From assembly GCA_003151275.1 (NCBI GenBank), contig PLXC01000094.1, forward strand, positions 110,037 to 174,036: DNA of 64,000 bases. The letters are read 5' to 3'. Within the stretch, counting starts at the first letter, position 1. Each line of letters starts with the position of its first letter. Positions 3,951 through 49,632 of this stretch are shown in pieces. A program made the position numbers and the translations under genes. Origin of the DNA: Candidatus Melainabacteria bacterium (GTDB taxonomy: Bacteria > Cyanobacteriota > Vampirovibrionia > Obscuribacterales > Obscuribacteraceae). A model generated the notes under the pieces. That model had not been told where the DNA came from and did not search any database. It saw only the letters and a list, made by a program, of their open reading frames with translations.

Positions 3951-4036
3951 ACTCAGCTCTCATTGTTCAGCTCTGCTTATCTCCACCGATTGAGTATAGC
4001 GTTACATCATACCCTTCGACGGAACAGCCGTCGCGG

Positions 4037-4549
4037 ATGTATCGAAGAGTTCCTGATGTCGCCGGCACTGTTGTTCATGGATTTCGATCAATTCTCCAAA
4101 ATTCTGATCGAGATAAAGGTGAATACGAATTTTCTGTTGGAACGCACGATCAAAAGCTTTTCAGCTCCAGCCAATTTTTTACACCCTCGACGAAAAAAGT
4201 GAATGGCTATGAAGTTCATCCATCATTAGGGTCAGCTGAAGTAAGAGGTCATGGGGACACGCCCATAGCGCTAATTCACTCTCATCCCAATGAAAAAGAT
4301 GCTGATCCGTGGCACTTCTCGACCACTGACAAAGACCAGGCTGATGTGCTGCAGGGTCAACATCCTGAAACACCAGTCAGAGCATTTTTGCTTACACCCG
4401 CGCCAAAAAATCAAATTTTGGTTTACGACCCAAATGATAAAGCGCATCCCAACGGCGAAGAAGTTGGGCATTTCGAACCAAATGGCACCTTTACTATCTC
4501 GAACGAAAAATACCGAAAAGAATTTGAGAAATACAAGGTCGCTCAATGA
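4037..4549 (+). CDS. DUF4329/JAB-like domain protein
   Basis: About 170 residues from the ATG at 4037; the frame is open upstream to 3800 but that part overlaps the divergent membrane gene. The core reads IALIHSHPN, then WHFSTTDKDQAD, then VRAFLLTPAPKNQILVYDPND. This is the H-x-H ... S-x-x-D arrangement of JAMM/JAB-type metallo-domains and of DUF4329, often found at the C-terminal tips of Rhs and other polymorphic toxins. No signal peptide or long N-terminal carrier is attached, so it may be a detached effector tip or a stand-alone enzyme. It converges with the gene at 4625-5899. Confidence 0.6.
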   Translation: MYRRVPDVAGTVVHGFRSILQNSDRDKGEYEFSVGTHDQKLFSSSQFFTPSTKKVNGYEVHPSLGSAEVRGHGDTPIALIHSHPNEKDADPWHFSTTDKDQADVLQGQHPETPVRAFLLTPAPKNQILVYDPNDKAHPNGEEVGHFEPNGTFTISNEKYRKEFEKYKVAQ

Positions 4550-4624
4550 CCGAAGGTCACCAATTAAACATAAATCGAGAAAAGCGGCGGCACGATAGTT
4601 TGATCAAATTCAAGCCAAGACCGA

Positions 4625-5899
4625 TTACTCGGTGACTCTCGTCAACTCGAATATCTCGTGATACGGATGATCGACGGCCCAACTGCAGTCAGCCCAATAT
4701 TGCGGCCCAAATTTATCAACTTTCAATTTGTCTGTGATTTCATCAAGAACAATTGTGATGGTGGCGGTGCGATACGGACCAAGTTTGCTCATGCAGTCGG
4801 TCTGTGCATAACAGTATCCCTGCTTACTCTCCAGGGCGGCACCCTGATTCGGTTTAAGTTTCGCATCTAAAAAACAGATTGCGTTATCTGGTAGACCCAC
4901 CACGCGCCACTTGGGGCCAATCTTCACGTATTTGCCTGAGAAGGCACCATTTTGTTCCTCAACAAGTAATTCTGATCCATTTGGATGGCGCCAACGTCCC
5001 GCTATATTTTTCCAGGCGTCTTTATCGCTACAAATATCCGCGGGGGGATTAAGCGCAAGGATGTCTCGGTACTTTTGCGGAATGAGCATATACCGCTTCA
5101 GCAACCGCTTGTACTCTGTGCAGTTTGCTTCAATTGCCTTGCGTCCTGTTTTCACCAAGAGCTCGAGACGCGCTCGATCAGTTCCGACCACTCCCTTTTT
5201 TTTGTCAACCTTTCCTCCCGATGCATGATCCTTACCAAAATTAAAATGCATTGAGCTCTCCCAGGCTTGCTCTGGTGTGAGCGTGGCTCCGATCCAAGAG
5301 TCAGGGACAAACGCATCCTTGCCCCACGTCCAAGGATTGTCCGGATCAGCGCCTGGAAGCATATTCACTACCGGAAACGCATGTGGCGCATCAGTTCGCA
5401 CAATAGTCGCCCCAATACCGGATGGGCTTAGAAGCGCGGCCATGGTAGCCGCGTGTTCCTCACAGTAGCCAGCTTGAATTTCCCATGCTGCCTGCGCCAA
5501 AGCCGTTCCGTATAGCTCGCCCCGCTTGTTGAGTTCCTCTCGCCTGTAAACTAATTCTCGTGGGCTGACGATCGGCGAATTGTATGTGCGACCCGTGACT
5601 GAAAAAGGCACCACAGTTTGAAGCACAACATTTCCGGCGCTATTCAGAGCAACTATTCGATCAGTCGCCATGTCTCGCGCCACTTCGGCTTTCGCCCGCG
5701 ATGATTGAATTGGGTCACGACGTTGAACCTGCTTAACGATGTCAACGGCATCTTCGAAATTCTCTGGCGCTTGTCGCCCGGCTGCTGAGACATGCTTGAT
5801 CATGCAAAAGAGCATGATGACTGACACCAAGGACCAAACTGTAAGTGGCAATCTGGTTTTCAATGGTTCTCGCAATCGGTGAGCCCGCGTGAATCTCAT
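4625..5899 (-). CDS. Secreted transglutaminase-like (papain-fold) protein
   Basis: About 424 residues from the ATG at 5899; an upstream in-frame start at 5965 would add 22 residues. A basic N-terminus leads into a hydrophobic stretch LPLTVWSLVSVIMLFCMI ending HVSAAG, a likely signal peptide or anchor. The core AGYCEEHAATMAALLSPSG, then TDAPHAFPVVN, then FVPDSWIG gives Cys, His and Asp in the order and spacing of transglutaminase-core domains. The C-terminal part (SELLVEEQNGAFSGKYVKIG) looks like a beta-rich secreted domain. The family reading is inference from the triad pattern. The substrate is unknown; protein or peptidoglycan processing outside the membrane is plausible. Confidence 0.6.
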   Translation of the reverse strand: MRFTRAHRLREPLKTRLPLTVWSLVSVIMLFCMIKHVSAAGRQAPENFEDAVDIVKQVQRRDPIQSSRAKAEVARDMATDRIVALNSAGNVVLQTVVPFSVTGRTYNSPIVSPRELVYRREELNKRGELYGTALAQAAWEIQAGYCEEHAATMAALLSPSGIGATIVRTDAPHAFPVVNMLPGADPDNPWTWGKDAFVPDSWIGATLTPEQAWESSMHFNFGKDHASGGKVDKKKGVVGTDRARLELLVKTGRKAIEANCTEYKRLLKRYMLIPQKYRDILALNPPADICSDKDAWKNIAGRWRHPNGSELLVEEQNGAFSGKYVKIGPKWRVVGLPDNAICFLDAKLKPNQGAALESKQGYCYAQTDCMSKLGPYRTATITIVLDEITDKLKVDKFGPQYWADCSWAVDHPYHEIFELTRVTE

Positions 5900-7818: not shown

Positions 7819-9437
7819 AAAACCGAACTTCCAACCGACACCCCAAAAGAGGTTCTAATGACGGATACTCCGTCCTTTTCGTCATCACAATGGGCGTAAT
7901 AGCGCTGATAGGTGTTATGGCTGTAACGGATTCTCTGGTGTCGGCACAACGAAACGTGGCCTCTCAAGTCTACATGGATGAAGCTTCTTCCGCAGCTGAG
8001 AATGCACTGCAATACGCCCTTGGCGTTCTCAATCTCGCTGCAAGCAATGGCACACTCTCCAGTGTCACATCACCTATCGCCATCCCTTCGTCCATCATGG
8101 GTAATGCTACGGTTGTAGTCAATATGGCGCAAATCCCTCTAGCATTATTAGCAGATCCGAAGAATCCCACTCCGTTATTTAGTCAGCAAACAAACCCTAT
8201 TGGTCAATCTCAAGACTATCGCTTATTGAGTGCACAAGCGCAGTACGGTATGTACAGGCGCACAATAAATGTTGTTCTAGGCCCAAATCCTTTTCCAACA
8301 ACTCCCCCTGGGAAAACGCCACCGCCGCCAGTCAGCAATTATTTCAATCAGGCGCTTTTGAGCAATCAAGGAATGCAGATTAATGGCGTTAGTGTTCAGT
8401 TTGATCCCAATTATGTTAGCAGCGGTTCTTATTCGCCTGCTTCTTACGGACAGACAATAGTAACCAGCAATGGACAAATCCAGCTAAGCGTTCCAACTGG
8501 TCAGACTGTTCCGCTCAGCATTGATGGAGGAATGAATGCTCCTAGCTACAACGCTCCGGCTATGGGTCAAGACAAGAATGGCAATCCAACCTCCTCGATC
8601 CTCGTCAATGGAAATGTGTCCTACACTGGCCCCAGTAATCCTAATCCATATGCGGCTAATTTTGTAACTGACCTAGGCTTGCCCACGCCGACGGTGGGCG
8701 CAAATATACTGGGGGACGGCCAAGGAGCCGGAGCGCAAAATTCAGCTGGTAAACTTGCAAATACTGCATTACCAACCCAGCAAGCACCAGCGCAGATTCA
8801 AAATGCCACATCTCCAGCAGGTATCAATGTCACTGGTTCACCCGGCAGTTCGTCGACTACTGTGGTGCCACAAGGCAATGTGACCAGTCTCGGCGCCATA
8901 AATCTGACTGGCACCAGCTCCATGACGTTAAGTCCTGGACAGTACGTCGTCAACTCTATTTCGACTTCCCCCAACTCAACAATCAACATCAATATGCCAG
9001 GTGGTTCTGGCACGCCTTCTCCTGTTCAAATTTATATACAAGGCGATACACCGAATGGCTCAGCACTGCAACTTCAAGGCAACATAGTAGGCAGCACTTC
9101 GGCAAGCAATCTTCAAATTTTTTATAACGGCTCGCAGCCTATCACTGTAAACCAGGCGGGTAGCTCGAATTTCAGCTTTTACGGACAGATTTATGCACCT
9201 AACTCCAATGTCACCATCAACACCACAGGCGGAATCTTTAACGGATCGGTGGTTTCGAACAATCTTAGTTTGAGTGGGACTGGGAAGTACTATTATGATC
9301 CCCGAACGATTGCAAGCAGTGGCATAGCCCCTCCTAAGGGCGCAGCAGCTGGACCTGGTTATACAATTATTCCAAATAGCCCCGCTAGTCAGTTTAATGT
9401 TTTGTCGTGGCAAGAACAGACCACTGGTGCTCAATGA
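7815..9437 (+). CDS. PilX-like protein with large Ser/Asn/Gly-rich DUF7305-type domain
   Basis: 540 residues. A short basic N-terminus (NRHPKRGSNDG) precedes YSVLFVITMGVIALIGVMAV, a PilX/TadE-like anchor helix with DEASSAAENALQYALGVL after it, as in PilX proteins. Residues about 155-500 are rich in Asn, Gly, Ser, Thr and Pro and contain a polymer-like beta region (SSMTLSPGQYVVNSIST, FYGQIYAPNSNVTI), the pattern of DUF7305 domains found behind pilin anchors. It is the last gene of the minor pilin operon and much larger than a standard PilX. A role as a surface-exposed tip or adhesin is inferred. Confidence 0.7.
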   Translation: MKNRTSNRHPKRGSNDGYSVLFVITMGVIALIGVMAVTDSLVSAQRNVASQVYMDEASSAAENALQYALGVLNLAASNGTLSSVTSPIAIPSSIMGNATVVVNMAQIPLALLADPKNPTPLFSQQTNPIGQSQDYRLLSAQAQYGMYRRTINVVLGPNPFPTTPPGKTPPPPVSNYFNQALLSNQGMQINGVSVQFDPNYVSSGSYSPASYGQTIVTSNGQIQLSVPTGQTVPLSIDGGMNAPSYNAPAMGQDKNGNPTSSILVNGNVSYTGPSNPNPYAANFVTDLGLPTPTVGANILGDGQGAGAQNSAGKLANTALPTQQAPAQIQNATSPAGINVTGSPGSSSTTVVPQGNVTSLGAINLTGTSSMTLSPGQYVVNSISTSPNSTININMPGGSGTPSPVQIYIQGDTPNGSALQLQGNIVGSTSASNLQIFYNGSQPITVNQAGSSNFSFYGQIYAPNSNVTINTTGGIFNGSVVSNNLSLSGTGKYYYDPRTIASSGIAPPKGAAAGPGYTIIPNSPASQFNVLSWQEQTTGAQ

Positions 9438-9661
9438 TTGGACGCCGCATAACACTAACTTGCGGGACCGCTCCGGATTACTAAATTAGCACAAACACGC
9501 CTTAATGCCTGTCGTATTCGAGTTCTCACTGTTGGTCACCGAATGACAGAAAGGCCACACGCAAGTACCACATATGGTGACACGCCGAAAAGAGAGAAAG
9601 CCATAACTCACGCCTGACGGAACGACTACCGCGCAAATGGAAACGACCGTTCAACTCTTCG

Positions 9662-10420
9662 TCACTGGCTAGGCTCGTCGATACCAATCTTGTGTAGTTG
9701 CTCTAAGGCTCGCTTTTGAATTTCTTCGGATGGAGCTGTTTTATAAACCCGCAGCCAGAGCGAAGTCAGTTTCGTGTGCGCCCTATCTTGGATGACCGGA
9801 TCTGTCGAGGAATAGTAAATGCTATCCCAAACATTCACCTCCTTGATGGTGGACGGAATTTTTGCTTCGAGTATGTCAGCTTGCCGACTAAGCCATCGGG
9901 GAGAGTCGGAAAATTTCGCTGCCATTCGATAATACTTTGCAGCTTTCACTTCATCGTGGGCGTATAAATATTGGTTGATACCAGCGATAAAGGGTAAACA
10001 CCAATTGTCAGGATTTTCATGAATTCCATGGTCAATTATTTTTGCAGCGTTTTCGGGATGATGTTGTTCGCTACCTATAAGAAAGGCGGCATAAAAGTAG
10101 ATGTTCACAAACTGGGGATCAAGAGCCGAAATTAATTCAATATATTTCAGAGCGCACGAATACCCATCTCGTTTTCGTTCATATTTATCACCAACATATT
10201 GAACAAAAGCTAGCCAAAAGAAGTCCGCTAAAATTTGATCAAGCCCAAGTGACATAAGCTTAACTGCACTCGGTCGCGGTAGAAAAAATCTCGATTCATT
10301 TTGTGTTGATTCTTGAGGGACTATTGCTTTTTCAAATGCTATCCGTGAAAAAGCAATTATAGGCACCAATATCAATACCAGCGCAAAATCTACTAACAAC
10401 TTAGAAGAATAACATCGCAA
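9662..10420 (-). CDS. Membrane-anchored TPR-like protein near pilin genes
   Basis: 252 residues. The N-terminal hydrophobic segment LLVDFALVLILVPIIAFS is probably an uncleaved anchor. It is followed by FFLPRPSAVKLMSLGLDQILADFFWLAFVQYVGD and helix pairs of tetratricopeptide type (YIELISALDPQFVNIYFYAAFL; AAKYYRMAAKFSD). Proteins with this anchor, SLG-D-ILADFFWL motif and TPR tail occur beside pilin and secretion genes in other bacteria. It lies 47 bp downstream of the major pilin-like gene on the same strand, so co-transcription is likely. The exact role is unknown. Confidence 0.65.
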   Translation of the reverse strand: MRCYSSKLLVDFALVLILVPIIAFSRIAFEKAIVPQESTQNESRFFLPRPSAVKLMSLGLDQILADFFWLAFVQYVGDKYERKRDGYSCALKYIELISALDPQFVNIYFYAAFLIGSEQHHPENAAKIIDHGIHENPDNWCLPFIAGINQYLYAHDEVKAAKYYRMAAKFSDSPRWLSRQADILEAKIPSTIKEVNVWDSIYYSSTDPVIQDRAHTKLTSLWLRVYKTAPSEEIQKRALEQLHKIGIDEPSQ

Positions 10421-34217: not shown

Positions 34218-37200
34218 ATGTTGGCAGATGCTGGCGGCGCAACAACAGATACAACAAAGAAAGATCCAAAAGCGGTTGATGCTCAGACCGCTCAAGCTTC
34301 AGCCAACCTTTTAGCGGATGCTGTGACGCAGAAGGATCATGCCGCAGGCACAGACGGCGGTGCTGCTAATGCTTACACCTTGCTCAAAACAGGTGTGGAT
34401 CAGTATGCCCAAGACAAAACGCATACAACTGAAGATGTAAAAAAATACTGGGAGACTCTCTCGGCCAAACTAACGCAAAACGGAGTTTTGCCCGAATTGG
34501 CGTTGATTACAGGCAAGCAGAATCTAACCGAGTCAGACTTGCTCAAGGACGACAAGCCGGCTGTGCCGGTTCGGAGTCTGGATGATGAGACGCTTAATAA
34601 AACGGCCGACGAGCTTCATAAGGCCATTCACAACACAAGTGGCGCTGCCTTTTGGGAACACGACGATCCTGACAAAGATAAGATTTCGCAGCTTCTCGAA
34701 CCACTTGGACAAGAAGACCGTAAACGACTTGAAGAGATTTACCATGACAAATTTGACAGCAAAGGCGGAGCCGACACATTACGCCATGAGCTGAAAGACA
34801 AACTCGGTGGCGATAATGGTGTTGACTGGCGTCGGGCTGAAGCCGATTTAAATCGCACCGACGGCAAAACCAATGACGCAGGCGCACTCATGGTCGCTAT
34901 TACTGAATCGCGTGGCGACAAAGACAAAGGCAATGCTGAAATTCGCGGTGTTTTGGAAACTTTGAACTCCGAGCAAATTGCCAACCTGGATGCTGACTTC
35001 CGCAAAGCTTATGGAATTAGCTATCAGGACGCTCTTAAGAAAGCAAATTTGAGCGATGCCACAAAAGATGCTCTGCCGATTCTTGAAAAAGGCGTCGATA
35101 ACAAAACCAAAGACGACATCATCAAACTGGCTAATATTGCAGTAGATCGCGGCGACAAACATTTATTCGGCGAAGCCCTGCGCGGCGACACGGCTGATAA
35201 CGCGGCTGCCCGTCAACAGTTGATGAATGATGAAACCTTCAAGAATAAGCTGGCAGAAAAATTCAAGAGCCAGGGCTATGAAGATGGTGATGTCGATAAA
35301 AAAGCAAAATTCGAACAAAAAGTGGATCGTGTTGCCCTGGATTATTTGACCGAAGGTCGCATTTCTCTAGCCACCATTACATCTGAAGATACCGGCAAAT
35401 GGATTTTCAACAACGACGACAACGTGTCGCTAGCTGCTAAAAACGCTTCCCAAGACGAGCGCGATCAATACGCCCGGGGACGCGATGCGGCGTCTAAGGA
35501 TCCTAAACAACAAAGCGACCAGGAAAAAACGGACGCCGCATTTTACAACAAAATTCATAAAGCCTTCAAAAATGGTGGCAGTGACAAGCAAGTCGCAATT
35601 TGGGAAGACGAGCTCACTCACGGCAAAGATACGCTAATCACCTCAGTTGCAAAAACACATGACGACGGCTGGGGTCCTCTGAATTTTGGCTCCGGTACAA
35701 ATATGAACGACGCCATGACCCGCGTTGAGCAAATGAATGAAGAAGACTTCAAAAATTTGCAGGACCCAAAATACTACGCGCAGTTTAAAGACTCGCTGCG
35801 TAAGTACTCAGACGACGGCGAATATAACCGGATCATGGGGTTGGTCGACCAGAAGCTGGTTGACGACAAGGGTAATAAACGCGATTTTCTTGGATCGCAG
35901 ACAGTGCATCGTTCTCTTAGTGAGGTCGTTGACGACAATAAGAGCCATGCCTTCCTCTGCTTTGGCACCAGCTATAACGGCAAGAATATTCTCGACAACA
36001 TCGAGAACTTGAGCCAAGACGATGCCAAAAAATATCAAAGCGATGCGAACTTCCGCAAAGACGTAGACAGCCTGATCAACGGCAACTTGAGCGATGAAGA
36101 GAAGATGCTTGCGCATCGATTGCTCGATCAGTCGGCAAAGACAGGCGATCCACCGAAACTAGCTGGCGATGACGAAGCAAAGTTTTTGCACGACAAAATA
36201 CACGGTGCCGACGCACAAACATTGATTGCAGATGGGCAGGCAATGCTTGAAAAAAATCCAGACTTGCGTCAGCGATTGACCGGCAGTATTCAAGATCTGA
36301 AGGGAGATGATCTAATTCTCAAGGGCGACATCGAAGATGCGCTGACTGAGTCTTATTATAAATCGCAACCAATGCCGCCTGATGGATCATATGGTCTCGA
36401 TAATCCTACTGCAGACCAAAAGCTTCAGTCTATTTCTGACGATCTATTCAAAAACGGATCTCTCACCCTGCAGTCTAAACTCGACCTCAACTTCTCGAAA
36501 GTTGACTTGATTGGCGAAATCGCTAAAGCTCCAGAAGCCGAGCGCAGTCAATTGAGAGGCCAGCTTAATGAACAGGAACGCCAAGTCTTAGATGCCGCAG
36601 TTTCCAATCCGAATCAAGAATTGAGCACTGCAGATAAAATGCGACTGTTCATCATCGGCGATGGCGGAAATTATTCCGACTTCCAGGGCGAACTCGACAC
36701 GCTGCACAAAACAAATGACTTCAATGCCATTCAAAATCTGAAAGATGAATACTCGCGAAAATATCACGGCGACATCGACAACGATTTTCTCAATAAGGTT
36801 TCAAGTTCGGATAAGAACCTCTACAAGAATTTATTGACGCCGGAAAATGGCGACGGGCGTCAGACCTTCTACGACAATTTGAAAAAACAGCTAGACGAAA
36901 ATGGATTAAGCGTCGATGGCACCAGTTCGACGATGCAAAAATCGATTGATCAAAATGCAAATGCGCTTGAAGAATATCAAAAAATCTATAAAACACTGCC
37001 GCCAGACGCGCAGCAGGCTCTCGACAAATATTTCAACGATTCTCTTGAACAGTATAAACAATCAAAAGACAAATTAGCAGAAATTGTTGTGGACGCAGCA
37101 ATAACCGCTGCTGCGGTAACTGCCGTGATTGCCTCGGGCGGAACGCTGGCACCAGCCGCTATTGCTTTGTTGGCAACAGGCGCCGCTGCTTTCCGCGTTG

Positions 37201-40200
37201 GAGCGCAGAAAATTGTCGAAGGCAACGACTTTGATTCCTCTCCGCAAAACTTGATCAAGCAAGGTGTAATTGGGTTCACCAGCTTTGCCTTAAACTGTGT
37301 TGGTCCGGAAATGTTTGCAGCCGAAGGACCGCTGCTGAGCAGCGCCCTCGAGGGAACGCTCACCACAATTGGTGCCAAAACAGCACTCAAGGAAGGCGGC
37401 GAAACAGCGCTACAAGACTTGCTTAAGCAAGGGTTCACCAAAGGCGCATTGGACGACGGAGCGGTCAGCAAATTCGCCAGCAGCTATCTTGAGAACCCAG
37501 CAGAGGTTGATGCATTCAAGGCGAATCTGCAAGGTTCTTTCGATGCCTCCAATAAAGCTCTTACCACCCAAATGCAGGAACTCGCTCAGCAGCAGGCTGC
37601 GCAATGGGCGGAGAAATCAACTGGCGAAAAACTTGTGATCAGAGGCGGTGAACTCGTTCGCGAAGTCGGCACAAATGCAGGGATCGGTGCTGGTGCCAAC
37701 GTAACATCCGAACTCGTTGTGGCACCATTCAGCCCGGACGGCCTCAATCCCGATCGTTTGCTGGAAAGCGCATTTTCTGGTGCCGCAGCTGGTGCCGGCA
37801 TGACCTTGCTACTAAAACCTATTGGCTTCGGTGCCGGCAGACTTGCCGAGCGTTTCGGCGATCACGCCATGGTCGGCGATGGCGCGAACTCGGGCATCCC
37901 AATGAACGTCACGAAGGGCGAAGACGGACATCTTTATTACGACCCCAAAAACAACTTGCCCGGCTATGAAATCACGCGTCAAGACGGCAGTGTCGTCAAA
38001 GTCGAAGGTGACCAGCCGATCCGCTTCGAGAATGGCGATCAACTGACGAAGGCTCCAGACAACGTCAAGATCGAAGACCACGATGGCCAGACTGTGATAA
38101 CGGATGGCGTGCATGATGCCCCTGTCACCACGGCTGCACGCATGAATGATGATGCACCTGCCACCATGTTTGGTGATGAGAAAAAAGGCTGGTTCGGACG
38201 CCTCAAAGATGCAGTTTCAGACGCCTGGAAAGGAATTTGGGATAAAAAACCCGTCGCGCCGACCTTCAAAGGGCAAGATGACGTCGCGATTTCACTCAAC
38301 GGTCGGGAATACAATCTCGGTCCAGATGGCAAACTCCAGATCGGCCGCGGACTTGATTCAAGCCTAAGTCACGACGGCTATGTTTCTGGTAATCATGGAA
38401 CCCTCGAATACAAAGACAATAAATTTTACTATACCGACACCTCCACAAATGGATCTTATATTCAACGGAATGGGCAGTGGGAACGTCTTCCGAAGGATCA
38501 ACCAGTCGAAATCAATCCGCTAGACGAAGTTCGCCTTGGTGGCGTCAACGGCCCACCGCTCGATTTGTTTCCAAAGAGCGGACCGGTCGATCGCACGGTT
38601 TCACTTAACGGCGTAGACCTGCAGCCCGGAGCCGACGGCTCAATTCCTATCGGTCGTGACCAGGCGGGCTTGCAAGACGGTGCCAATGACATTTTATCCA
38701 TGCGTGTAAGCCGCGACCATGGCGATCTGCGATTTGACGGAAACACCCAGCAATATATTTTCACCGACCACCATTCCGGCAACGGCACATACATCGAACG
38801 CGCAGATGGCTCATGGACTCAGATTCAGGACGGCAAAATATATACAAGGGCCAAGGACGCGCCACCGGATCAGTGGGTTTATCAACAAGACAACAATTCC
38901 GCCTATGTAAAAGACGGCGACAAAATTCACCTCGCTTCTGAAAATGGCCCAGCAGTTATCGTTGCGGAGCAGCGAGGACGATTATTGCAGGATGGCAGTA
39001 CTCAGTACCACCGCCCTGAAGGCGATTACATCTACAAGCTAGATGGCGACTCTGTCTTCAAAAATCACAGCGGCGAACAAACCTTCCGTGATAAAGCGGG
39101 AAATGTCCTGCGAACCGAAAGCCCGACGGGAAAAAACATAGAATTCAAGTACGACAATAACGGCAACCTTACTGCAACCAAGATCAGTAACGGCCAAAGC
39201 TGGGAAGGATATCAAACCACAGATGGTGGCAAGACTTGGTTCCACGATACAGCCGACGCGGCTGCTCCCAATGGCTATCGCACCGAGCGATTTGACGGCA
39301 AAGTCGAAGTTAACGGTGACGGTTCTGTTCGCACAATTCCGAATGATGCCAGGCAGCCGATCGAGATCAAACGCGTCGACGGCAGTACGGAGAAAATGTA
39401 CAGTAATGGTTTCCATGAATATGAGCCGGCCGACTTCAACACCGAACGGGCAAATCTGCGAGCCGTTGCCGACTATACATTCGGCGATGCGGCGCAGCGC
39501 GATCGATTCTTGCAATTCTCGAGTGAATTTGAAGCACGCGCCGCGCGTGAAGGCATTCCGCAAGAGAAGGTAGCCGGAGTGTATCAACAGGTAGAACGTT
39601 TGATGCAGGGGGGCAACGATGCTGCTCTCAATGAAGCAGACCGTGCACGTCTAGCCGAGCAGATGATGTACAATGCGGCTCATCCGGAAACAATCGACCA
39701 GGGTGCTAACAACACTTGCAACGTCACGACCATAGAAATGAGAATGTTCGCGCGTGATCCAGAAGCGGCTGCACGCGTCATTACTGATGTTGCGCTTAAT
39801 GGGAAGTACGTCACACCGGAAGGGAAAGTCGTCGACGTAGGCCGCGTCGGCGGCCTTGAGTACAGACCAGATCCGGGCAAACCGGATATTATGTCCAATG
39901 GCTTCGATCGCGGCTCTAGCACCGGTGTCAAATACCCGGCTGATGTTAAGGCTGATGGTTACAGAAACTGGGCCGACGAAATTTTCCAGAACACCGCCGT
40001 CAATTTAAACTATTCAGATGCCACCACCTACATTACGCAAGAAGGTGGGAATTGGGTTAGAAAGCCAGTGCCAGAGGGCGGAGTGGTTCAGTATTCGAAC
40101 CGTCCTGGCGAAGGGGAGCGTCTTGTCTTGTACGGACCAGACGGGCGCTACTTGAAAACGACAGAGATCGGGCAGGGTCCCAACGTAGCTGCCGACGATC

Positions 40201-40571
40201 TTGGAGACATTTACAACAAACTGGTGCCGTCACACGCGCCCGATGGTTACATTGCCAACGGAGTAGATGACGGCTTCGTGATTGCCGGTAGACCAGGTCG
40301 CAGTGGCATGGTGGTGCCGCAAAGCGATAGCGACTTGTTCAAAAAATTATCTGAGATGGGGCAAAATGGTAAGCTACCCGCGATTGCATGGGTTGATACC
40401 GACAAGAGTCCGACTCTATTTGGTGCTCCTCAAGGTGATCATGGCAGTCACGTCGTAACCATTACCGATGTCGACCCCAAGACAGGCATGGTCAAAGTGG
40501 TCAACCAATGGGGTGAAGTTAACAACAAATGGATATCAGTGCAGGAGCTTTATGGGGCTTTGTATAGGTAG
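34218..40571 (+). CDS. Giant multidomain protein: annexin-like repeats, two FHA domains, papain-like peptidase
   Basis: 2117 residues, no signal peptide. Residues 1-950 are charged helical repeats whose spacing (DKDKISQLLEPLGQEDRKRL, then IYHDKF, then LRHELKDKLGG) resembles annexin repeats. About 952-1001 is an Ala-rich hydrophobic stretch (VVDAAITAAAVTAVIASGG). FHA domains lie at about 1353-1448 (IGRGLDSSLSHDGYVSGNHG, TSTNGSYIQ) and 1457-1576 (IPIGRDQ, VSRDHGDLRFDG, HHSGNGTYI). A short Rhs-like stretch (KYDNNGNLTATK) follows. The C-terminus has Cys1834 in QGANNTCNVTTIEM, His2078 in HGSHVVTI and Asn2096 in NQWG, a papain-like Cys-His-Asn triad. Inferred: a phospho-peptide-guided protease or polymorphic effector. 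The partner gene starts 6 bp downstream. Confidence 0.8.
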   Translation: MLADAGGATTDTTKKDPKAVDAQTAQASANLLADAVTQKDHAAGTDGGAANAYTLLKTGVDQYAQDKTHTTEDVKKYWETLSAKLTQNGVLPELALITGKQNLTESDLLKDDKPAVPVRSLDDETLNKTADELHKAIHNTSGAAFWEHDDPDKDKISQLLEPLGQEDRKRLEEIYHDKFDSKGGADTLRHELKDKLGGDNGVDWRRAEADLNRTDGKTNDAGALMVAITESRGDKDKGNAEIRGVLETLNSEQIANLDADFRKAYGISYQDALKKANLSDATKDALPILEKGVDNKTKDDIIKLANIAVDRGDKHLFGEALRGDTADNAAARQQLMNDETFKNKLAEKFKSQGYEDGDVDKKAKFEQKVDRVALDYLTEGRISLATITSEDTGKWIFNNDDNVSLAAKNASQDERDQYARGRDAASKDPKQQSDQEKTDAAFYNKIHKAFKNGGSDKQVAIWEDELTHGKDTLITSVAKTHDDGWGPLNFGSGTNMNDAMTRVEQMNEEDFKNLQDPKYYAQFKDSLRKYSDDGEYNRIMGLVDQKLVDDKGNKRDFLGSQTVHRSLSEVVDDNKSHAFLCFGTSYNGKNILDNIENLSQDDAKKYQSDANFRKDVDSLINGNLSDEEKMLAHRLLDQSAKTGDPPKLAGDDEAKFLHDKIHGADAQTLIADGQAMLEKNPDLRQRLTGSIQDLKGDDLILKGDIEDALTESYYKSQPMPPDGSYGLDNPTADQKLQSISDDLFKNGSLTLQSKLDLNFSKVDLIGEIAKAPEAERSQLRGQLNEQERQVLDAAVSNPNQELSTADKMRLFIIGDGGNYSDFQGELDTLHKTNDFNAIQNLKDEYSRKYHGDIDNDFLNKVSSSDKNLYKNLLTPENGDGRQTFYDNLKKQLDENGLSVDGTSSTMQKSIDQNANALEEYQKIYKTLPPDAQQALDKYFNDSLEQYKQSKDKLAEIVVDAAITAAAVTAVIASGGTLAPAAIALLATGAAAFRVGAQKIVEGNDFDSSPQNLIKQGVIGFTSFALNCVGPEMFAAEGPLLSSALEGTLTTIGAKTALKEGGETALQDLLKQGFTKGALDDGAVSKFASSYLENPAEVDAFKANLQGSFDASNKALTTQMQELAQQQAAQWAEKSTGEKLVIRGGELVREVGTNAGIGAGANVTSELVVAPFSPDGLNPDRLLESAFSGAAAGAGMTLLLKPIGFGAGRLAERFGDHAMVGDGANSGIPMNVTKGEDGHLYYDPKNNLPGYEITRQDGSVVKVEGDQPIRFENGDQLTKAPDNVKIEDHDGQTVITDGVHDAPVTTAARMNDDAPATMFGDEKKGWFGRLKDAVSDAWKGIWDKKPVAPTFKGQDDVAISLNGREYNLGPDGKLQIGRGLDSSLSHDGYVSGNHGTLEYKDNKFYYTDTSTNGSYIQRNGQWERLPKDQPVEINPLDEVRLGGVNGPPLDLFPKSGPVDRTVSLNGVDLQPGADGSIPIGRDQAGLQDGANDILSMRVSRDHGDLRFDGNTQQYIFTDHHSGNGTYIERADGSWTQIQDGKIYTRAKDAPPDQWVYQQDNNSAYVKDGDKIHLASENGPAVIVAEQRGRLLQDGSTQYHRPEGDYIYKLDGDSVFKNHSGEQTFRDKAGNVLRTESPTGKNIEFKYDNNGNLTATKISNGQSWEGYQTTDGGKTWFHDTADAAAPNGYRTERFDGKVEVNGDGSVRTIPNDARQPIEIKRVDGSTEKMYSNGFHEYEPADFNTERANLRAVADYTFGDAAQRDRFLQFSSEFEARAAREGIPQEKVAGVYQQVERLMQGGNDAALNEADRARLAEQMMYNAAHPETIDQGANNTCNVTTIEMRMFARDPEAAARVITDVALNGKYVTPEGKVVDVGRVGGLEYRPDPGKPDIMSNGFDRGSSTGVKYPADVKADGYRNWADEIFQNTAVNLNYSDATTYITQEGGNWVRKPVPEGGVVQYSNRPGEGERLVLYGPDGRYLKTTEIGQGPNVAADDLGDIYNKLVPSHAPDGYIANGVDDGFVIAGRPGRSGMVVPQSDSDLFKKLSEMGQNGKLPAIAWVDTDKSPTLFGAPQGDHGSHVVTITDVDPKTGMVKVVNQWGEVNNKWISVQELYGALYR

Positions 40572-44704: not shown

Positions 44705-45898
44705 TTAGCGCCGGCGACCGCGCGTTCTTTCCCCGCGTCCGTCTTTTGCAGATCGTGCACCGTCAGCAGCGCCAAAGCGTTTAGCCTGTTCACCTTCTTG
44801 AGCACCATGGTGCGCCGCTCCAGCTCCAGCTGCTGCGCCACGTCGCGCCGATTGCTCACCTTGTTCAGCGCCGTAATGTGCCGCTCCAGCTCCAGCTGCT
44901 GCACCACGTCGCGCCGATTGCTCACCTTGTTCTGCTCCATAATGGGCGGCTCCTGCCCCGGCTGCTGCTCCATAGCGCGCGGCTTGCTGACCTTGTTCCG
45001 CTCCGTAATGGGCGGCTCCAGCTCCGGCTGCCGCTCCATATTCGGACTGATATCCCGATGCAACAAACGGATTAGCCGTTGGCTGTTGCCAGGTCTTATA
45101 ATTTGCGCCCTGTTGAAGTTGCTGCGCTTTGTACCAAGCTTGTTGTTGCTGCACAGCGGCGGCGTGATAGCTATTCATGTTGTTAGCTGCAACAGCGTTA
45201 GTGGTGGAATTGTTGATATAGACAGGCTTCCCTCCCTGATTGTAATAAGGGACGGGAGCAGCACCATAGTGGATTGGCGTGCCATAAGGAACGGTGTTCC
45301 AGTTCGAACCAGAAGTCATAGCAGCGCCGGCCATAGCACCTAAACCAGCAGCGGCTGCGGTAGTGACAGCGCTCGGTTGAGAGTTATACATCTGCGGAGG
45401 CGGCGCATATTGAGGCGGTGCATACTGTTGCGCTGCTGGTTGGGATTGAACTGCGCTAGCTTGCAATCTCTGCACCGCTTCGGTCAGGTCCACCTGATGG
45501 TCGGTCCTATCCATGTACCAATAACCACCTCGTGAGCCCATAAAGATTTGGACTGCAGGACCAGCCACGCCAGGGCCCGGTAGCGGCACGACTAGTCCTT
45601 TAGGAGTGACAACCATCTGTTGACCTGATGGACTCGTCTGGGTCTGCAAGGTCACCATAGAGACATCAGGGGGCAATTGTTCACCATTCGGCGGCACTGA
45701 TTGCTGCTGCAATACCGACTGCGGCTGCTGACCTGGCTGATTCTGTTGCTGCCCGGACTGTTGCTGCCTAGCTTCCCGCCTCTCTTGAATCCGATCCCGC
45801 AGACCTTGAGCCAGCGTGAATTGTGGGGAGCACAACGAGATCCCAGTCGCGATTGAAATTCCGACCAAACCAATGACAACTCGTTTCTCAAACTGCAT
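44705..45898 (-). CDS. Secreted low-complexity protein with tandem 22-residue repeats
   Basis: 397 residues. The signal peptide VVIGLVGISIATGISLCSP ends near FTLAQG. A Gln/Pro-rich region (about 35-75), a compact segment VVTPKGLVVPLPGPGVAGP with GGYWYMDRTDHQVDLTEAV, and an Ala/Gly zipper-like stretch (TTAAAAAGLGAMAGAAM) follow. Residues 287-374 are four copies of a 22-residue repeat, GAAAGAGAAHYGAEQGEQ plus linker, ending in an Arg/Lys-rich tail. No enzyme domain is visible. An envelope, matrix or nucleic-acid-binding surface role is possible but not shown. Confidence 0.7.
   Translation of the reverse strand: MQFEKRVVIGLVGISIATGISLCSPQFTLAQGLRDRIQERREARQQQSGQQQNQPGQQPQSVLQQQSVPPNGEQLPPDVSMVTLQTQTSPSGQQMVVTPKGLVVPLPGPGVAGPAVQIFMGSRGGYWYMDRTDHQVDLTEAVQRLQASAVQSQPAAQQYAPPQYAPPPQMYNSQPSAVTTAAAAGLGAMAGAAMTSGSNWNTVPYGTPIHYGAAPVPYYNQGGKPVYINNSTTNAVAANNMNSYHAAAVQQQQAWYKAQQLQQGANYKTWQQPTANPFVASGYQSEYGAAAGAGAAHYGAEQGQQAARYGAAAGAGAAHYGAEQGEQSARRGAAAGAGAAHYGAEQGEQSARRGAAAGAGAAHHGAQEGEQAKRFGAADGARSAKDGRGERTRGRRR
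44777..45040 (-). repeat. Four tandem 66-bp repeats coding 22-residue units
   Basis: Unit core GAAAGAGAAHYGAEQGEQ; the first and fourth copies carry variants (GQQAAR and HHGAQEGEQAKR). It is located in the C-terminal part of the secreted protein and prone to length variation. Confidence 0.85.
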
Positions 45899-48562: not shown

Positions 48563-48610
48563 TCAAGTGGCTGAAAAGCTGACTAAACGAGCAAGTATTT
48601 GCGCAACAAT

Positions 48611-49384
48611 ATGCACTGTCCAGCAACCCGTTGGCCTCTTTTTCCAAAAGTAATGCCAAGTATTCCAATAAATTTCATCGAAGGGGTTAGCTTGTCGGCC
48701 ACCAGTCAAAGTGGAGTTAGCCGTGTGCTTGTGGAGTCCAGCGAGGAACGCAATTCGCTCAGTTGGGACCGATACGTCAGGTTGAATGCGGCTGCTGAGG
48801 CTATATTGCGTCTAACCACATCCAAAGCGAGCGTTCTTGACGTTGGTGGGTTTGATGGTGCCCTCGCCTTGTTTTTACCCCAATACGAGATCGACCTGAT
48901 CGATCCGGCCACCACCGGCGCCTCCCTTCAGCAAGCTCCGGTCCCAGATCAATCGTACGATGTAGCCGTTGCCGTCGACGTTTTGGAACACATTGAGCCG
49001 GCTCAGAGGGAGCTGAGTTTAAGAGAGTTAGCGCGCATTGCCAGGCGTTATGTGATTCTCAACTACCCACATCATGGAACGAAAGCCGCTCAGGAGTTGG
49101 TGTTTGCTGCCACCAGCAATCCGCTCATCCGCGAACATGTTGAATGGCCACTGCCCGATACGTCCTGGGTTTGTGAGATCATGTCCGGCCTCAAATTCAA
49201 AGGGCATGCTACGGCACATTCCAGCGTAGCTGTGTGGTTAGGTCAATACCTGACGTTGCAGCTCGCTCCACACACGGCGCTGGAATTAAACCGTTACTTG
49301 ATCGAGCACCATTCCAACGAACCATTCAAACAACCACTTTACGAACTTGTAGTTTTTGAGCGAACCGAGCCATACTATCTATAG
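48611..49384 (+). CDS. Class I SAM-dependent methyltransferase
   Basis: 257 residues from the ATG at 48611; a TTG at 48599 and an ATG at 48653 are alternatives, none with a strong ribosome site. The SAM-binding motif VLDVGGFDGALALFLPQYEIDLIDP, then YDVAVAVDVLEHIEPAQREL and LRELARIARRYVILNYPH are those of class I methyltransferases that resemble glycan- or lipid-modifying ones. The substrate is unknown. It is followed 59 bp later on the same strand by the small candidate selenoprotein gene. Confidence 0.8.
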   Translation: MHCPATRWPLFPKVMPSIPINFIEGVSLSATSQSGVSRVLVESSEERNSLSWDRYVRLNAAAEAILRLTTSKASVLDVGGFDGALALFLPQYEIDLIDPATTGASLQQAPVPDQSYDVAVAVDVLEHIEPAQRELSLRELARIARRYVILNYPHHGTKAAQELVFAATSNPLIREHVEWPLPDTSWVCEIMSGLKFKGHATAHSSVAVWLGQYLTLQLAPHTALELNRYLIEHHSNEPFKQPLYELVVFERTEPYYL

Positions 49385-49443
49385 GCGCTTGCAGTTCATG
49401 TACGCAGGACCTTAGTTTACAAATCAGTTCGGAGAAGTTGATT

Positions 49444-49632
49444 ATGGAGTCGATATTGTGGCCTCTAGCTGCCGTGGTTCTATATTTTGCTCTGCAACTA
49501 TGGATCCTGCCGAAAATTGGAATCCAAACCTGAATGAGCCGTTCCTGCTCGGTCGAGCAGAAAAAACCTGACATGCAAGCAACTAGCAAAGTTGAGAGTC
49601 CCGAGCCTGAGTTGGACGCCACTAACCACTGA
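49444..49632 (+). CDS. Candidate small membrane selenoprotein (62 codons, Sec at position 30)
   Basis: From the ATG at 49444 (GGAG ribosome site upstream) the text is MESILWPLAAVVLYFALQLW, then ILPKIGIQT, then TGA (49531-49533), then MSRSCSVEQKKPDMQ and a charged acidic tail to a TGA at 49630. The first 29 residues are one membrane helix. The TGA sits four codons before a Cys (Sec-x-x-x-x-Cys). Eleven nt after it begins a perfect 6-bp stem with a GGTC loop, the apical sequence of the E. coli fdhF SECIS at nearly the same spacing. If read as a stop the product would be a bare 29-residue helix. The function is unknown; membrane-bound redox is inferred. Confidence 0.65.
49545..49560 (+). other. 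SECIS-like stem-loop with GGTC apical loop
   Basis: CTGCTC-GGTC-GAGCAG: a perfect 6-bp stem with the loop GGTC, the loop starting 17 nt after the in-frame TGA (fdhF of E. coli: about 18 nt and GGUC). This is the strongest SECIS match in the window. Confidence 0.7.

Follow-up and report, generated by a model that had tools for sequence, protein, structure and literature searches.

A candidate family of single-span membrane selenoproteins in Obscuribacterales and Verrucomicrobia, with a covarying SECIS hairpin and a large cysteine branch

The locus lies in a 64-kb stretch of DNA, hereafter the window, and consists of a short frame with one in-frame TGA, a hairpin just downstream of it, and an upstream methyltransferase-like gene (Table 1). 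An initial annotation, made from the window alone, had proposed a membrane selenoprotein candidate with a SECIS element. Read through the TGA, the frame translates as MESILWPLAAVVLYFALQLWILPKIGIQT-U-MSRSCSVEQKKPDMQATSKVESPEPELDATNH-stop, 62 residues. The hairpin has the sequence CTGCTC-GGTC-GAGCAG, with the stem beginning 11 nt and the loop 17 nt after the TGA. The in-frame TGA, the perfect 6-bp stem, the loop at that distance and a Cys five residues past the TGA had all been described in the annotation, and each was recovered here, the last as Cys35. The acidic tail that it also described is present in the window copy, but the tail is not conserved across the family.

Table 1. Features of the candidate selenoprotein locus, in window coordinates
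Feature	Position	Strand	Basis or remark
Methyltransferase-like gene	48599..49384	+	Ends 59 nt upstream of the selenoprotein gene; Pfam Methyltransf_23/11
GGAG, ribosome-binding-site-like	49431..49434	+	9 nt 5′ of the ATG; from the sequence
Candidate selenoprotein gene, 62 codons	49444..49632	+	TGA 49531 predicted to be read through as selenocysteine; terminal TGA 49630-49632
Single hydrophobic helix, residues 2-25, predicted membrane span	49447..49518	+	AlphaFold2 and Kyte-Doolittle
In-frame TGA, predicted selenocysteine, residue 30	49531..49533	+	Codon in 81 copies; Cys in database homologues
SECIS hairpin (candidate)	49545..49560	+	Stem 49545-49550 / 49555-49560; loop GGTC 49551-49554
Cys35 codon	49546..49548	+	Proposed redox partner of Sec30 (U-x4-C); Cys conservation

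The methyltransferase-like gene is possibly co-transcribed with the selenoprotein gene, a weak link, and a relative of it was found near 10 of the 68 family copies examined for neighbours. In the closest relative, L001, only a 3′ remnant of this gene persists (9301-10000) beside an intact selenoprotein gene, and the methyltransferase was therefore rejected as an obligate partner. A 98-codon frame on the minus strand (49326-49622) was likewise rejected as a true gene, since the plus frame accounts for the data. Searches of the window for Rfam families and tRNAs returned nothing. Elsewhere in the window, a 2117-residue frame (34218-40571) has FHA stretches in two places and matches RHS repeats weakly, and a frame at 44705-45898 with repeated GAAAGAGAAHYGAEQGEQ-type units had no match in Pfam.

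In E. coli fdhF, the SECIS hairpin lies just after the UGA, and the window hairpin has the fdhF loop, GGTC. When both strands of the window were scanned in any frame, the TGA at 49531 was the only one to have, 16-24 nt further along, a GGTN loop closed by a perfect stem of at least 6 pairs; 40 Markov-simulated windows contained a mean of 0.025 such arrangements, with a maximum of 1. The predicted fold was more stable than dinucleotide shuffles (z -2.1) and than synonymous recodings of the same peptide (z -1.6), 7% of which were equally stable. By itself the window fold is only modestly unusual; the case rests on comparative evidence. Scoring followed the geometric rules published in section 5 of PMC13188914, which in that section comprise a loop of 3-9 nt, a stem of 4-16 bp, a distance of 16-37 nt from the UGA, a G within the first two loop positions, and a minimum free energy of at most -7.5. 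The window hairpin falls within these limits (stem 6, loop GGUC, 17 nt, -9.5 kcal/mol over 39 nt).

When contigs were scanned with the translated frame, 27 loci were found, in Obscuribacterales/'Melainabacteria' MAGs and in Akkermansiaceae and other Verrucomicrobiales; L003, which is titled Proteobacteria, belongs to a genome (G019) that falls in the same order as the Obscuribacterales loci. All 27 loci, and a second copy in L011, carry TGA at the homologous codon, despite the Cys placed there in the query. Matches were found in 34 of the 53 genomes in the order of G001, the genome of L001, with 32 in the TGA form, and in 26 of the 239 genomes in the order of G014, an Akkermansiaceae MAG, at 27 places (26 TGA, one TGT). 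A phylum-wide search of 386 genomes drawn from a larger group returned only G001 itself and a weak TAG-containing match in G333. Across 81 copies, the window included, the codon is TGA in 78 and TGT (Cys) in three, and never TAA or TAG. This set comprises 68 copies that carry the usual LP motif (65 TGA, three TGT), on which the neighbour counts below rest, L149 (TGA), and 12 further copies (all TGA) that were checked for codon, tail and fold only. Some copies are near-identical sisters, such as L162 and L163, and two look partly decayed: L160 lacks a normal N-terminus, and in L165 the front half is missing, as are the Cys and any clean hairpin.

Protein databases revealed a large cysteine branch. 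A first profile search returned 283 proteins at E values up to 1, the best 120 of which were used, and a second profile built from Cys forms returned 709 at E values up to 0.01, again with the best 120 used. Among the matches listed were 199 distinct proteins, with Cys at the site in 117, an end one codon before it in 74, Trp in seven and Arg in one; with a Cys-only profile behind the second search, the Cys share is not to be read as a frequency. The 74 short entries, all among the best 120 of 283 in the first search, end at the TGA site and are the product of gene callers meeting the TGA. The Trp entries are probably translations of TGA with another code table, because one of them, P0003, is nearly identical to the TGA locus L075. 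Holders of the Cys form among the matches listed are named as Obscuribacterales, Deltaproteobacteria, Myxococcales, Planctomycetes, KSB1 and Acidobacteriota, and the branch amounts to hundreds of database proteins, some of them labelled Deltaproteobacteria, Planctomycetes, Acidobacteriota and KSB1. A single-sequence protein search gave no candidate sharing three words, and three Cys homologues used as queries had no match in a plasmid collection.

The alignment of 36 Sec and Cys forms showed Q18, L22, P23, G26, T29, U/C30 and C35 to be invariant in all 36. Coding is conserved on both sides of the in-frame UGA, UGA homologues occur in other organisms, and insertions downstream of the TGA preserve the frame across homologues. 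The coding character past the TGA that the initial annotation had perceived is thus borne out by frame-preserving conservation and, as described next, by a hairpin that covaries. The Cys homologues for which it had recommended a search exist in number, among the matches listed and as the three TGT copies, and they continue past the site in the same way; a set of homologues ending at the TGA with no conservation beyond it, which the annotation had named as the contrary outcome, was not seen.

The SECIS geometry was scored in 54 of the 78 TGA copies, drawn from a set of 56 that had been collected with a motif demanding a Cys after the TGA and from which L087 was excluded for folding; predicted folds were obtained for some of the other 24. 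Of the scored copies, 53 of 54 conform to the published geometry, with the loop 16-23 nt after the TGA, 53 reach an energy of -7.5 kcal/mol, and 46 have the loop GGUC. L026, with a stem of only 3 bp, lies outside the published geometry, and among the unscored copies L161, L164 and L165 were predicted to fold without a clear GGUC hairpin. Covariation was assessed in 46 aligned GGTC hairpins (44 distinct), a set that excludes Cys forms and copies with other loops. In this alignment 99.2% of cells are paired, and five of the six pairs show changes on both sides; 500 shuffles were compared with it on five measures, none of them equalling it on any, and sliding the partner strand by 1-3 columns reduced pairing to 23-53%. 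In L025, L096, L097 and L107 the stem sequence is wholly different, with the loop preserved.

Codon choice beneath the hairpin is pinned in the TGA copies with a CSV motif. All 40 of these use TCG and GTC, codons that supply 18% of Ser and 26% of Val, respectively, in the long frames of the window, and the wobble position of the Cys codon covaries with that of a Glu codon (TGT with GAA in 3/3; TGC with GAG or GGG in 37/37). Compared with synonymous recodings, the 54 hairpins had a mean z of -1.9; single copies are not decisive, because only 26 of the 54 individually reach the best 5%. Among the Cys forms, the loop of L059 reads GGUU, its C having been lost, and at the hairpin position of L153 there is no GGUC. 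The hairpin is still intact in L087 (L132, TGT), a close relative of the TGA locus L075; either Sec was replaced by Cys very recently, or the copy is a variant of the assembly.

The selenocysteine machinery was found to accompany the TGA form. At strict thresholds, tRNA-Sec was detected in 42, SelA in 38, SelB in 34 and SelD in 44 of the 53 genomes in the order of G001. TGA-form genomes carried these genes more often than genomes without the family for tRNA-Sec (30/32 vs 11/19, Fisher p 0.003), SelA (28/32 vs 8/19, p 0.001) and SelD (30/32 vs 12/19, p 0.009), and without significance for SelB (24/32 vs 9/19, p 0.07), all of these being P values that ignore shared ancestry and assembly completeness as confounders. 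In five genomes tRNA-Sec, SelA and SelD are all missing, and the TGA form occurs in none of these. Two TGA-form genomes (G011 and G021) gave no tRNA-Sec, four gave no SelA, and eight gave no SelB at the strict threshold. Among genomes with the family gene, SelB exceeded the cut-off in 16 of 18 and tRNA-Sec in 21 of 24; ARAGORN called tRNA-Sec(TCA) at 20 of the 24 best loci, the other four being ordinary tRNAs. In G001 all four components are present, and on its contig C98 the selenoprotein gene (L058, the same copy as L001, at 82277-82435) has selB (63720-65591) some 17 kb downstream on the other strand. The flanking frames of L001 and of the window begin alike, and the selB of the window organism may lie just past the window end.

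Taken with the TGA and TGT codons, the Cys homologues, the covarying hairpin and the sel genes of relatives, the selenoprotein proposed in the initial annotation is well supported, and the gene very probably encodes a 62-residue single-span membrane protein in which the TGA is decoded as selenocysteine. Were the TGA instead a genuine stop, the product would be a 29-residue membrane micropeptide and the hairpin a regulatory element. Gene finders do stop at this codon, as in the 74 short entries above, and TGA serves as a normal stop in the window, where it terminates 12 of the 30 long non-overlapping frames. A Verrucomicrobial subgroup, moreover, has only 9-11 codons and no Cys past the TGA. 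Termination would, however, leave unexplained that the Cys homologues run on with the same residues, that the 78 non-Cys copies all have TGA and never another stop, that the downstream insertions stay in frame, and that the hairpin maintains its spacing from the TGA, with its GGUC loop mostly kept; we consider it very improbable. Decoding as a different amino acid, as Trp or by plain readthrough, could draw on the Trp found in seven of the 199 entries among the matches listed, but these most simply reflect translation with a table in which TGA is Trp. The ordinary use of TGA as a stop in the window means that the code is not reassigned, and a reassigned TGA code was rejected on that ground; in addition, the replacement seen at the DNA level is Cys (TGT, 3/3), and a covarying hairpin and Sec machinery accompany the TGA. 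Such decoding is scarcely credible.

Termination is less well countered within the Cys-less subgroup, because several of its copies end 9-11 codons after the TGA. A Cys lies at most seven residues after the TGA in 72 of the 81 copies and is absent in nine, namely eight Verrucomicrobial copies (L109, L110, L112, L113, L114, L148, L156 and L157) and the decayed-looking L165. The Verrucomicrobial subgroup keeps the TGA, most of its members end 9-11 codons later with GGG/GGS-type tails, and several of its hairpins have AGGUG or CGGG-type loops. It represents either a Sec-only form or true termination at the TGA.

Selenocysteine decoding of the frame would, in our reading of the sequences, follow the ordinary bacterial route, and the protein itself would represent a new selenoprotein family and a new architecture. 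The window protein (P0001) matched no Pfam or NCBIfam family at E values up to 10; for 36 family members searched against NCBIfam, and ten Cys forms against Pfam and NCBIfam, every match fell far short of the cut-off or was no better than chance, and a PDB profile search gave one chance-level match only. No Pfam or NCBIfam model of a catalogued selenoprotein family matched. A 2026 catalogue of prokaryotic selenoproteins lists 119 families and subfamilies, (PMC13188914); the rows of parts 1 and 2 of the three parts of its section 7 give a domain model, and no such protein appears among them, a comparison that does not extend to Haft and Tolstoy 2025 or to the survey of groundwater by Deng et al. 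2026. Parts of PMC12013277, PMC4807772 and PMC5029168 were also covered. A literature search on the Obscuribacterales lineage returned nothing on its selenoproteins.

Like the fdhF-type selenoproteins of E. coli, the family combines a UGA, a hairpin whose GG(U) loop lies 16-37 nt further along, Cys homologues, and SelA, SelB, tRNA-Sec and SelD in its genomes. Unlike them, it matches no selenoprotein family model, it has U-x4-C in place of UxxC or CxxU, and the 62 residues of the window protein give no sign of a thioredoxin-like fold. TsoB (NCBIfam NF045694), a selenoprotein with a rhodanese/DsbD fusion, shares a connection to rhodanese, and its UxxxxU motif, as given in the catalogue (PMC13188914), has the spacing of U-x4-C; the NF045694 model, however, is 572 positions long, and the small membrane family does not match it.

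In the family layout, one membrane helix leads into T-U-(M/L)-S-x-x-C, and the tail beyond it varies. All 68 copies scored have a hydrophobic stretch in the 20 residues preceding LP, with a mean Kyte-Doolittle value of 1.98 (lowest mean 1.56). AlphaFold2 placed a helix at residues 2-25, with pLDDT of about 90 over residues 1-20 and low confidence in the rest, so that the Sec-Cys geometry cannot be judged from the model. The mean charge is -0.28 for the N-terminal stub, against +1.6 for the 21 residues that follow the helix, and the second value exceeds the first in 46 of 60 copies, an imbalance that points to a cytoplasmic Sec side. The eukaryotic proteins SelK and SelS are likewise short single-span membrane proteins with Sec in the cytosolic tail, near the C terminus, and their SECIS is of another type. 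The bacterial family resembles them in design, a likeness by description for which no sequence link is claimed.

A mechanism can be outlined from these features. The hairpin would recruit SelB (putative binding) and Sec-tRNA, and the ribosome would decode the TGA as selenocysteine, giving a product that starts with a membrane helix, continues with Thr-Sec-Met-Ser-x-x-Cys and closes with a polar tail that varies. In the majority form, Sec30 and Cys35 most likely constitute a selenol-thiol/selenenylsulfide pair at the membrane edge, although the copies without the Cys argue against this pair being a universal mechanism. At the membrane surface, the protein might then reduce or transfer reactive sulfur (persulfide, polysulfide or low-molecular-weight disulfide); its presumed partners are rhodanese, CoA-disulfide-reductase-like and persulfide-dioxygenase-like enzymes.

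This role was suggested by gene neighbourhoods. Sulfur genes lie within 4 kb of 20 of the 43 Obscuribacterales copies and of one of the 25 others (L153, through a weak opposite-strand match). They belong to a single sequence cluster that comprises rhodanese with YgaP-like helices, CoA-disulfide-reductase-rhodanese and persulfide-dioxygenase-like metallo-beta-lactamase-rhodanese proteins, and 25 of the 32 genes share the strand of the selenoprotein gene. In a control of six sampled genomes, 78 rhodanese matches in 37.8 Mb correspond to 0.0165 expected per 8-kb region, a figure that counts Pfam matches where the observation is a BLAST sequence cluster, with shared ancestry uncorrected. TauE (3/68), an ArsR/SmtB-type regulator (13/68), ACR3 (7/68), ArsA (8/68) and ArsD (8/68) also recur in these neighbourhoods. 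On the contig of L011, a frame at 4026-4730 fuses an ArsR-type helix-turn-helix to a rhodanese and lies between the two selenoprotein copies. Clusters for sulfide and persulfide detoxification contain an ArsR-type repressor, rhodanese, persulfide dioxygenase, CoA-disulfide reductase and TauE, and the same kinds of gene adjoin one subgroup of the family. Among the literature matches listed for such clusters, none names one with a small selenoprotein.

Because sulfur genes adjoin so many Obscuribacterales copies, a redox role for a membrane-tethered selenol is the best guess, and reduction or transfer of reactive sulfur at the membrane surface is put forward tentatively, from the neighbourhood of one large subgroup. 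For that subgroup the sulfur role is best supported; for the window copy, which has no sulfur, truncated haemoglobin or TANGO2-like gene within 6 kb, it is a guess. Neighbourhoods differ by lineage, and the role may for that reason not hold for all copies. Five Verrucomicrobial copies (L022, L023, L024, L138 and L139) have a truncated haemoglobin gene directly upstream, and a TANGO2-like (NRDE) gene, checked with Pfam in L026 only, lies 77-530 nt downstream of L025, L026, L143, L157 and the Cys form L153. These loci, together with a DsbH-like thioredoxin gene that adjoins L021 and lone copies such as that of the window, would agree with a general membrane-anchored redox relay acting on haem proteins, lipid peroxides or protein disulfides, with partners differing by lineage; such a relay is conceivable but rather unlikely, as it leaves the recurrence of sulfur genes near the Obscuribacterales copies unexplained. 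The ArsA, ArsD, ACR3 and ArsR/SmtB-type genes counted above, and a multicopper oxidase near L017, could instead point to a selenoprotein for handling arsenic or other metal(loid)s. The ars genes, however, are on the opposite strand and up to 6 kb away, and they lie mostly beside copies with the sulfur cluster (L002 being an exception), with most other copies lacking them; we judge this reading improbable. A broader proposal, likewise tentative, is that of a family of minimal membrane selenoproteins that crosses phyla and acts on reactive sulfur species, with a large Cys branch that would share its function.

Selenoprotein families have mostly been discovered through resemblance to known proteins. 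The present family is easily missed, because it has no convincing match in Pfam, NCBIfam or the PDB, its proteins have only about 60 residues, and ordinary gene calling truncates them to half their length. It spans the non-photosynthetic relatives of Cyanobacteria and the Verrucomicrobia, and would add to the Obscuribacterales a selenoprotein architecture in which one membrane helix holds Sec at the membrane edge. The sulfur-gene neighbours and the large Cys branch offer a handle on a possible membrane step in the defence against reactive sulfur. If this is true, the family would be a bacterial counterpart, in design, of SelK and SelS: a membrane-tethered selenol for reactive sulfur species.
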